Assembly: GCF_014205295.1 (NCBI RefSeq)
Contig: NZ_JACHNF010000001.1
Coordinates: 5,270,001 to 5,334,000 of the forward strand
DNA length: 64,000 nt
Direction: 5' to 3'
Origin: Kribbella solani
GTDB lineage: Bacteria; Actinomycetota; Actinomycetes; Propionibacteriales; Kribbellaceae
Shown here: positions 56,941 to 59,059 of the stretch, in pieces
Position numbering within the stretch: position 1 is the first letter of the stretch
Layout: every line of letters begins with the position of its first letter
The notes under the pieces: model-generated
Told to the model about the DNA's origin: nothing
Seen by the model: only the letters and a program-made list of their open reading frames with translations
Databases searched by the model: none
Position numbers and translations under genes: made by a program

Positions 56941-56989
56941 GCATGTCTCCCAATTCCCCGCCGTAGCGAGGAGATGCTGGGAGACATGC
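56941..56989. terminator. Bidirectional terminator between the peptidase and hipA
   Basis: GCATGTCTCCCA and its exact complement form a 12-base stem across 25 bases, immediately after the stop codons of the two convergent genes. Confidence 0.75.
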
Positions 56990-56990
56990 C

Positions 56991-58256
56991 CTAGCTCAAC
57001 TGTCGGAGGACGTTCTCGCAATGGGTGCGGAGTTGTGGAAGGGTGCGGCCGGCAACCTCATCGGCACCAGGCACCTCCGCAACCGCGGCGAGGGCCGTCT
57101 CGAACGCGTCGGGATAGCGCTCGGCCAGTACGCGGACCCGGCCGATCATCAACTCGGCCGGAACATCGAGCGACCGCGCCATCTTCTCCCACTGTCTGCG
57201 CCTGATTCGGCTGAAGACGCGTTCGCCGCCGATCGACAGCGCAACTGATCTGTCCACCCGCTTGCTGTCGTACGACAGGCCGGTGGCAAGGTCGTACAAC
57301 GGCGCGATCCACCGCGAACCGGTCGAATCCAGAAGTAGCGAGATGTTCTTCGAGTGTCCGTCCGGTGCGCCCGCAACGAGGTTGACGGCAGCGAAGTCGG
57401 CCAGCGCCAGCAGGTCATCCTCAGGTTCTGTCAGCTGCCGCCGGACCAGTGCGACCAGGTCGGACAGCCGAGGCCCTCCCCTGCTCTCGTACTTCGCGGC
57501 GGGCAGTCGGCCGAGGGCCTGACAGAAGTCCTCCTGATGAATCCGTCTGACTGCCGCACCGTCCACCACGCGGTCGAAACGCTCGACCACGATCGCCCAC
57601 TGATCCTCGAATCGCAGCATCCGGCTGGACGCGACATCAACTGCCAGTTCCGCCGCGGCGGCCATCGTGACGTGCTCGATCAGCGCCTGGTGCAGAAGCG
57701 CCTTGATACCTGGCTTGACGATGTGCGTCGTAGCGGCCGATCCGCGCGCCTCGTACCACTGTCCGTCGATCGAGGTCAGCGCGAACTTCTCCTGCTGACC
57801 ACCGAGCGACCAGTGTTCGGCGGGCATCGACCAGGTCGCGGGCTGGTCCACCAGCCGACGCAGCCGCTCGGCGATCTCCGCTTCCCCCACGGGGTGCGTC
57901 TGAGACCCTCGGTTCCGTAGTTCTTCCAGTCGCTCAGGTGCGCAGAACTGGACGGCACCAGGGCAGTCCCAACCCATTTCGGCGAGGATTCCGAAGATGT
58001 CGTCCGCTGTCGTGTTCAGGCGGTCGGCCCATTGACCGAGCGTCTGCGGGTTCTCCGGCAACAGGCCCCGGAGGTACGGTTCGACCCGGCCGGCCGGGTA
58101 CGTACGCGATCCGATCGGCAGTCGAAGCGACAGCGGGATGGTTCCGGAGCCGACGTAGTCGTCGGTGTAGGTGAAGGTCGGCATGACGTCCGTGCCGGCA
58201 CGCTCCAGGTGTCCGGCGACTTCGTCGTACAGCACAACCGCGAGTCGCTCAGTCAT
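56991..58256 (-). CDS. hipA: HipA-type serine/threonine kinase toxin
   Basis: 421 residues. The N-terminal HipA domain contains GLLPENPQTLGQW and the substrate/ATP region SLGGQQEKFALTS. The catalytic region has APDGHSKNISLLL (the conserved D...KN) and the metal-binding APLYDLATGLSY. HipA kinases phosphorylate a tRNA synthetase and induce persistence; the target here is assumed by homology. It overlaps hipB by 8 bases. Confidence 0.93.
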   Translation of the reverse strand: MTERLAVVLYDEVAGHLERAGTDVMPTFTYTDDYVGSGTIPLSLRLPIGSRTYPAGRVEPYLRGLLPENPQTLGQWADRLNTTADDIFGILAEMGWDCPGAVQFCAPERLEELRNRGSQTHPVGEAEIAERLRRLVDQPATWSMPAEHWSLGGQQEKFALTSIDGQWYEARGSAATTHIVKPGIKALLHQALIEHVTMAAAAELAVDVASSRMLRFEDQWAIVVERFDRVVDGAAVRRIHQEDFCQALGRLPAAKYESRGGPRLSDLVALVRRQLTEPEDDLLALADFAAVNLVAGAPDGHSKNISLLLDSTGSRWIAPLYDLATGLSYDSKRVDRSVALSIGGERVFSRIRRRQWEKMARSLDVPAELMIGRVRVLAERYPDAFETALAAVAEVPGADEVAGRTLPQLRTHCENVLRQLS

Positions 58257-58575
58257 TTCCGGACGGCTCCTCGTCGCCGTACCAGGCCCGGCGCCGGTTC
58301 GCGGCGCGGAGAAGGCGGCGGTCGGTCAGATGTTGGTCCGAACCGGCTTCGGGGGCATTCGACGCGCGGAACACCATGGTCAGCCCCAGCGCGGCCAGCA
58401 GACGCATCAACTGTTCCAGCTCGACGCCGCGGTGCCCGCTCTCCACCTTTGCCAGCCAGGACCGGGAGACCCGTGCACGCGCGGCGGCCTCGGCCTGGCT
58501 GAACTCGAGCCGCAGTCGTTGCGCGCGGACCGTCGAGCCGAGCTTCGACCAGTCACCGATGACGATCTCGTCCAT
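58249..58575 (-). CDS. hipB: HipB-type XRE antitoxin/repressor
   Basis: 108 residues. The HTH lies at about residues 13-66 (KLGSTVRAQRLRLEFSQAEAAARARVSRSWLAKVESGHRGVELEQLMRLLAALGLTM). The C-terminal tail is polar and would contact HipA or stay flexible for proteolysis. It is the first gene of the operon, and three operator repeats lie 14 to 91 bases upstream. It should repress the operon with HipA as co-repressor. Confidence 0.92.
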   Translation of the reverse strand: MDEIVIGDWSKLGSTVRAQRLRLEFSQAEAAARARVSRSWLAKVESGHRGVELEQLMRLLAALGLTMVFRASNAPEAGSDQHLTDRRLLRAANRRRAWYGDEEPSGND

Positions 58576-58588
58576 GGCATCCGTCCTT

Positions 58589-58666
58589 TGTCTACGTTCG
58601 TAGACATTCTCGCATTGTCCTCGTTCGAAGACAATCCACGTTTGTCTACGTTCGTGGACAAACGTG
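58589..58666. promoter_or_regulatory. Three HipB operators spaced exactly 27 bp apart
   Basis: TGTCTACGTTCGTAGACA (58589-58606), TTGTCCTCGTTCGAAGACAA (58615-58634) and TTTGTCTACG-TT-CGTGGACAAA (58641-58662, symmetry continuing outwards to 58637-58666) share a TTGTC-(T/C)-(T/A)CG-TT-CG-(T/A)-(A/G)GACAA pattern. Their centres are 27 bases apart each time. Multiple evenly spaced operators are characteristic of cooperative HipB binding. Confidence 0.85.
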
Positions 58667-58729
58667 CCCCGGAGTACTGCGCATTGTGGAGTAGTGTGCG
58701 TGGGGGAGTTCCGGGGAGGTGGAGGGTCG

Positions 58730-59059
58730 ATGGATACGAGTCAGTTGCTCAAGGGTGTGCTGGATCTTGCGGTGCTGGCGGTGTTGCGGGAGGGGGACGG
58801 GTATGGGTATGACGTGTTGCGGCGGTTGCGGGCGGCGGGGCTGGTGGATGTCGCGGATGCGTCGGTGTACGGGACGTTGCGGCGGCTGTTCGCGGCGGGG
58901 GTGCTGACTTCGTACGTGCAGCCGAGTGAAGAAGGGCCGCATCGGAAGTACTACGGGCTGAACCAGGACGGGCATGAGTTGCTGGCCCGGTCCACCCAGA
59001 CGTGGAACCACTTCGCCGGCGCGATGTCCGTGTTGTTGCTGGCGAAGGAGGCCGCGTGA
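58730..59059 (+). CDS. PadR-family transcriptional regulator
   Basis: 109 residues from the ATG at 58730, with GGAGG upstream. The winged helix (LLKGVLDLAVLAVLREGDGYGYDVLRRLRAAGLVDVADASVYGTLRRLFAAGVLTSYVQPSEEGPHRKYYGLNQDGHELLAR) is complete and typical of PadR subfamily 2. The next gene overlaps its stop by GTGA, a layout common for PadR regulators that control a coupled membrane protein. Confidence 0.93.
   Translation: MDTSQLLKGVLDLAVLAVLREGDGYGYDVLRRLRAAGLVDVADASVYGTLRRLFAAGVLTSYVQPSEEGPHRKYYGLNQDGHELLARSTQTWNHFAGAMSVLLLAKEAA

Follow-up and report, generated by a model that had tools for sequence, protein, structure and literature searches.

HipA is the founding persistence toxin. Here we analysed a hipBA locus of Kribbella solani in a 64,000-nucleotide stretch of DNA, the whole of which is called the window below, and found that hipB is preceded by three 20-bp inverted repeats whose centres lie exactly 27 bp apart. 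Judged from the sequence, these repeats are probably autoregulatory operators of hipBA, with a HipB dimer on each and with neighbouring complexes coupled at set distances, most likely via HipA-HipA contact. The locus itself is a variant of hipBA autoregulation; the point of interest is a ladder of spacings. At the 192 loci with arrays, spacings cluster near 27, 38, 50, 61 and possibly 72 bp, and on balance we are inclined to read them as a ladder of about 27 + 11.5k bp (k = 0 to 4), kept while the operator sequences turn over, in which rung and HipA clade go together and the spacing would be a readout of HipA/HipB stacking. A toxin-bridged chain would then differ between clades by whole steps of about one turn, with Escherichia coli (28/39/28) and Legionella (~71 bp) as special cases. 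Should each clade indeed keep to its own quantised spacing, DNA sequence could reveal the quaternary arrangement of HipA and HipB in many systems yet to be tested, and the locus in the window, with three sites and two equal spacings, is a simple test case.

The three operators (Table 1) lie between hipB on the minus strand and the divergent gene padR on the plus strand. They have in common the pattern TTGTC-NN-CGTTCG-NN-GACAA, with a final T instead of A in operator 1; their centres are at 58597.5, 58624.5 and 58651.5, and both start-to-start distances are 27 bp. With up to three mismatches the pattern has six matches in the window, namely the three operators on both strands, versus a mean of 0.60 and a maximum of 5 in 100 dinucleotide shuffles. 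The claim of the original prediction that three inverted repeats with a common pattern are spaced by exactly 27 bases is confirmed. The array scores 41.5 in the scan described below, where 1/3020 shuffled promoters reached 16 and the largest value was 22. Operator 1 is separated from the hipB ATG by 12 bp, and a Shine-Dalgarno-like AAGGACGG (58588-58581, minus strand) abuts its edge; operator 3 is part of a longer imperfect palindrome (58637-58666, 93%). No consensus sigma-70 promoter was found at 58500-58800. Since the gaps between the operators, TTCTCGC and TCCACGT, are unrelated to each other, the array is not a simple 27-bp tandem duplication. As 27 bp corresponds to about 2.57 turns at 10.5 bp per turn, each repeat is turned by some 206 degrees relative to the next, and adjacent operators do not share one face of the DNA. 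The word "phased" in the original prediction is therefore misleading.

To place this array among its relatives, two sets of loci were surveyed. Discovery loci came from a HipB search, the HipA N-terminal family in the phylum and class, a scan of named genomes, and E. coli K-12; they comprised 169 helix-turn-helix frames (145 HipA-linked), of which 151 (131 HipA-linked) were left once redundant loci and those with short upstream regions had been removed. Test loci, from other actinobacterial groups, viral contigs and plasmids, were gathered after the spacing bins had been fixed; these 194 loci held 169 HipA-linked helix-turn-helix frames, or 134 after short regions and duplicates, including those of the discovery set, had been dropped. 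The scan sought uniformly spaced palindromes (spacing 18-65 bp, 2-5 copies, threshold score 16) with no consensus assumed. Arrays were found at 94/131 discovery and 98/134 test loci, that is, at 192/265 non-redundant HipA-linked loci, and 2/148 coding stretches of the same discovery loci reached the threshold. The half-sites differ widely between groups (e.g., GTGTGGCCG, TGACTACGA, ATCGGCACG, ATTTATGCG). The clean operator consensus expected for an actinobacterial HipB is valid within the clade of the window (44 sites from 14 loci) but does not extend to other actinobacterial HipBs, which have quite different half-sites at the same spacing.

Spacings in the discovery set fell at 26-29 bp (70 arrays), 37-40 bp (11), 49 bp (1) and 59-62 bp (12), with none between. 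Bins of 26-29, 36-40, 48-51 and 59-62 bp, fixed before the test set was gathered, contain 86/98 test arrays, or 82/92 without the six plasmid arrays, whose loci had already been seen when the bins were chosen and had informed the 48-51 bin. The share rises with the score threshold, from 93/111 at 12 through 74/78 at 20 to 36/36 at 30. Among arrays with at least three sites in both sets, 143/145 lie within the bins and the other two are at 30 bp. Conceivably, the scan itself, relatedness among the sequences or tandem duplication could have produced an artefactual ladder: many loci share clades, the discovery and test sets overlap in clade, and the bins cover 17/58 possible spacings. We consider this highly improbable, as the best spacing of shuffled promoters fell within the bins in 290/1060 cases (27%) with 0/1060 at score 16, as gap sequences are not conserved, and as one representative per 40%-identity HipA cluster (177 loci) still gave 31/32 within the bins, or 16/17 for test loci alone. 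HipA identity clusters were used here because single-linkage clustering of the HipB proteins lumped nearly all of them.

The step of the ladder is 11.6 bp (95% confidence interval 11.2-12.0; best period 11.65; 20 cluster representatives), and the best period over all 192 array loci is 11.4. At 10.5 bp per turn the rungs correspond to about 2.55, 3.6, 4.7, 5.8 and 6.9 turns, so that the angle between neighbours is near a half-turn only on the first rungs and then drifts. A DNA superhelix, the sole explanation offered for the 11.6-bp step, is possible. Rescanning with each array's own matrix yielded 17 extra sites beside 157 arrays of score at least 20: twelve have nearest distances of 28 (five times), 29, 39 (twice), 50, 60, 61 and 62 bp, four are second neighbours at 54, 54, 55 and 78 bp, and one further site lies inside the 55-bp pair of L326. 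They add little as an independent test of the ladder, since in most of these twelve cases the distance deviates by no more than 2 bp from the spacing of the array itself. Two rungs may also occur in one promoter, as in L104, which mixes 40 and 29 bp, and in E. coli K-12 (28/39/28), which fits the bins but was known before they were fixed. An abstract-level literature search, with the structural papers on E. coli beyond its reach, found no statement of a spacing rule for hipBA operators, and the novelty of the ladder is uncertain to that extent.

Spacing is kept while the sequence between the sites is not: in first-rung arrays with at least three sites the sites are 73% alike and the gaps 33% alike. 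Tandem duplication as the origin of the arrays was rejected on account of this low gap similarity. In a FastTree phylogeny of HipA from 177/192 array loci the rung follows the HipA clades, with 15 changes (off-ladder loci grouped) versus a shuffled mean of 71.8, or 11 changes without the off-ladder loci; given long branches and a quick method, the details of this tree are unsure. As only the HipA tree was compared, this correlation does not single out HipA.

Taken together, the quantised spacings make a spacing-dependent contact between neighbours likely, and the following arrangement would account for them. One HipB dimer would bind each palindrome and cover the hipB start region, and a contact possible only at particular centre-to-centre distances would couple neighbouring complexes. 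E. coli crystal structures reportedly show HipA assembled with HipB on the promoter. The coupling contact would most likely be the HipA-HipA contact between HipA/HipB/operator complexes that a Caulobacter study reports for E. coli (PMC7029023). Where three sites are equidistant, the central complex could contact those on either side and give a short continuous chain, unlike the two pairs of E. coli, and a cooperative HipB-HipA filament is plausible on the sequence data. The expected outcome would be steep repression, with several HipA molecules parked inactive on the promoter.

An alternative scheme, in which HipB dimers act singly on independent operators and additional copies only raise promoter occupancy, would suit arrays that vary from 2 to 5 detected sites, and binding here is inferred from sequence. 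For independent sites, a spacing that stays fixed while site and gap sequences diverge is unexpected, and we regard this scheme as quite unlikely. In a stronger competitor, HipA has no part in setting the spacing; either HipB-HipB contacts or bent DNA would couple the sites, and the toxin would merely ride on the antitoxin. Papers on E. coli report cooperative binding of HipB to four operators (PMC3376134) and an operator bent by 70 degrees (PMC3376134, PMC3920265), and sites 26-29 bp apart also occur beside HipB-like genes with no detected hipA. On the other side stand the agreement of spacing class with HipA clades noted above, within the limit of the single tree, and L466, one of two mobile-mystery-type XRE genes (TIGR02612), whose three similar palindromes are 33 bp apart and hence off the ladder. 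Coupling without HipA is possible but doubtful.

Control loci bear on the same question. HigBA is, like hipBA, a module with an XRE-type antitoxin, but no array at score 16 was found in the 700 bp upstream of HigA at any of 19 assessable loci (of 30). Weak XRE matches of other kinds gave an array at 1/26 assessable loci (of 28), and this one resembles a GC-rich coding repeat. In an earlier XRE control, 5/40 loci turned out to have hipA, and four of these five gave arrays at 26 or 27 bp; among the 35 without hipA, four reached score 16 (26, 26, 29 and a coding-looking 18). Arrays were also present at five of the 20 discovery loci without detected hipA, at 26, 27 and 28 bp, the last in three near-copies. 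One of these five, L004/L075, has a broken downstream frame that suggests, by eye, a decayed hipBA, and tblastn found no hipA there.

Several observations weigh against the coupled, HipA-bridged reading and its ladder. No array at score 16 was found at 73/265 HipA-linked loci, and 12/98 test arrays are off the bins, at 30 (twice), 31, 32, 42, 52, 53, 55 (twice), 71 and 73 (twice) bp; the two at 30 bp, L402 and L424, are related and have three sites each. Some arrays of low score resemble chance occurrences (e.g., L361, L420), and the 55-bp pair of L326 has one more site inside the pair and another 28 bp outside. Because spacing class goes by HipA clade, the loci represent far fewer independent events. 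As the step of about 11.6 bp exceeds the B-DNA repeat, one fixed helical phase does not fit all rungs. Two or three sites at 26-29 bp are also found at some HipB-like genes without detected hipA (L015, L016, L021, L089, L235, L240, L259), so that the first-rung spacing may not need HipA. Finally, the authors of the Legionella hipBST study suggest intermediate occupancy, which they contrast with the cooperativity of E. coli HipB (PMC10653801).

As a separate observation, L015, L016, L021 and L235 are HipB-like XRE genes of the genus without detected hipA, each with two sites 28-29 bp apart. The partner of such hipA-less XRE genes (L012, L015, L235) looks Fic-like, but inspection of the frames downstream of L015 and L235 yielded no identification, and Pfam gave no match in the two 120-aa fragments from L015 and L012.

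Because the array lies in an intergenic region common to both genes, and because PadR proteins also bind inverted repeats, the repeats might instead be operators of the divergent padR, or of a regulator common to both genes. We searched for padR in 39 genomes, 25 of them the own genome or the same genus. It was present in 25/25 of these (85-90% identity outside the own genome) and matched in 2/14 other genomes; 20 of the 27 matched places were examined, of which 19 were assessable, L226 being at a contig edge. Operator-like sites occur at 3/19 assessable padR loci, in the own genome, G003 and G018. G003 has hipBA and three sites, likewise 27 bp apart, at a distance from padR that differs from that in the own genome. 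In G018 (L220) two operator-like sites 26 bp apart, at about 210-165 bp upstream of padR, lie beside a decayed hipBA, of which a hipA remnant (residues 224-420) is left, while hipB and hipA residues 1-223 give no match. At the remaining 16/19 loci the fetched flanks contain no match to hipA or hipB, and 600 bp held no site at up to five mismatches; in G022 the S15 peptidase gene, the neighbour of hipA on its far side in the window, stops about 120 bp short of padR, and this is an apparent site without hipBA. Sites near padR are thus found only where hipBA or its remnant exists, which places the repeats with hipBA. Similar arrays also precede hipB in other genomes with different upstream sequence, and a separate palindrome, GCGGAGTACTCCGC, recurs by eye before padR in the genus; its variant CGGAGTACTGCG, outside the hip array, is perhaps padR's own control site. 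Ownership by padR was rejected on these grounds, and we consider it extremely improbable. The view of the repeats as hipBA promoter operators is in turn well supported by comparison, through their linkage with hipBA and not padR and through the arrays at 192/265 loci.

Table 1. Features of the hipBA promoter region and its flanking genes, in positions of the window
Feature	Position	Strand	Description
Operator 1	58588..58607		TTGTCTACGTTCGTAGACAT; inverted repeat TTGTCTACG-TT-CGTAGACAT; nearest hipB
Operator 2	58615..58634		TTGTCCTCGTTCGAAGACAA; TTGTCCTCG-TT-CGAAGACAA; exact pattern match; centre 27 bp from operator 1
Operator 3	58642..58661		TTGTCTACGTTCGTGGACAA; TTGTCTACG-TT-CGTGGACAA; centre 27 bp from operator 2
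hipB	58249..58575	minus	108-aa XRE/Cro-type helix-turn-helix antitoxin; PF13560 1.8e-9, PF01381 1.2e-8, both above cut-off
hipA	56991..58256	minus	421-aa full-length HipA kinase toxin; PF07804 3.3e-43 (148.3 bits), PF13657 1.7e-22 (80.2 bits)
padR	58730..59059	plus	divergent gene, 109 aa from ATG; does not own the repeats
Candidate padR control site	58670..58681		CGGAGTACTGCG; variant of palindrome GCGGAGTACTCCGC (by eye)

The genes downstream of the array have the antitoxin type, HipA domains, kinase residues and gene order of a hipBA type II toxin-antitoxin module, and by its proteins the locus is predicted to be one. hipB is directly upstream of hipA, the two genes overlapping by 8 bp. TIGR03070 matches the window HipB with 51.8 bits (5.8e-14), under its curated cut-off of 71.65, and the C-terminal RRRAW (or RRRSW) is found in 5/6 aligned relatives. 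The window HipA has both the N-terminal and the kinase domain, PF13657 and PF07804 each being above cut-off, and it is matched by the E. coli HipA chain (2wiu) at 2e-28. Its residues S150, K181, D299, N304 and D322 correspond to the kinase residues S150, K181, D309, N314 and D332 of the E. coli protein; all but S150 are in invariant columns of a five-protein alignment. The S15 peptidase gene and hipA converge, and an inverted repeat GCATGTCTCCCA ... TGGGAGACATGC between their ends (window 56941-56989) looks like a shared terminator. Among HipB relatives, those in L080 and L081, metagenome-assembled genome (MAG) contigs labelled Bifidobacterium breve, have 44-45% identity, close to those of Nocardiopsis with 49-52% and more; the MAGs are possibly mis-binned. 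A search of viral contigs with the window HipB alone confirmed no HipB relatives.

The pattern gave 28 match rows in the own genome, namely the six of the array, one site with two mismatches and 21 rows with three. A reversed control pattern gave 5 rows, an imperfect comparison because its CpG content differs. In the search for solitary sites suggested in the original prediction, no other site in the own genome has one mismatch or none, and the best solitary site, with two, is G000:C1:2228409-2228428, the sole operator-like site elsewhere at that limit. A HipB regulon built on solitary sites is neither claimed nor excluded.

Among the closest known systems is the hipBA promoter of E. coli K-12 (O1-O4), which likewise combines an XRE-type HipB, a full-length HipA, several palindromes before hipB and neighbours 28 bp apart. 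In contrast to the window, its sites follow TATCC-N8-GGATA instead of TTGTC-NN-CGNNCG-NN-GACAA, and it has four of them at 28/39/28 as opposed to three at 27/27, so that the window array is not an E. coli-type O1-O4 set. The hipBA1 and hipBA2 promoters of Caulobacter crescentus have repeats at E. coli-like intervals and were on that basis likened to the E. coli higher-order complex; as far as the accessible text goes, no general spacing rule was formulated (PMC7029023). Legionella hipBST resembles the window in having three evenly spaced HipB sites, reported as 18-nt sites with 53-bp gaps (PMC10653801), but it has a split toxin and a centre-to-centre distance of about 71 bp, as computed from these values. 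This distance resembles that of the split-type, hipBST-like loci L283-L285 from another actinobacterial class, which have two sites 71-73 bp apart and in which the N-terminal part of HipA has its own reading frame of some 110-120 aa. These loci together with Legionella hipBST may represent a fifth rung of the ladder.
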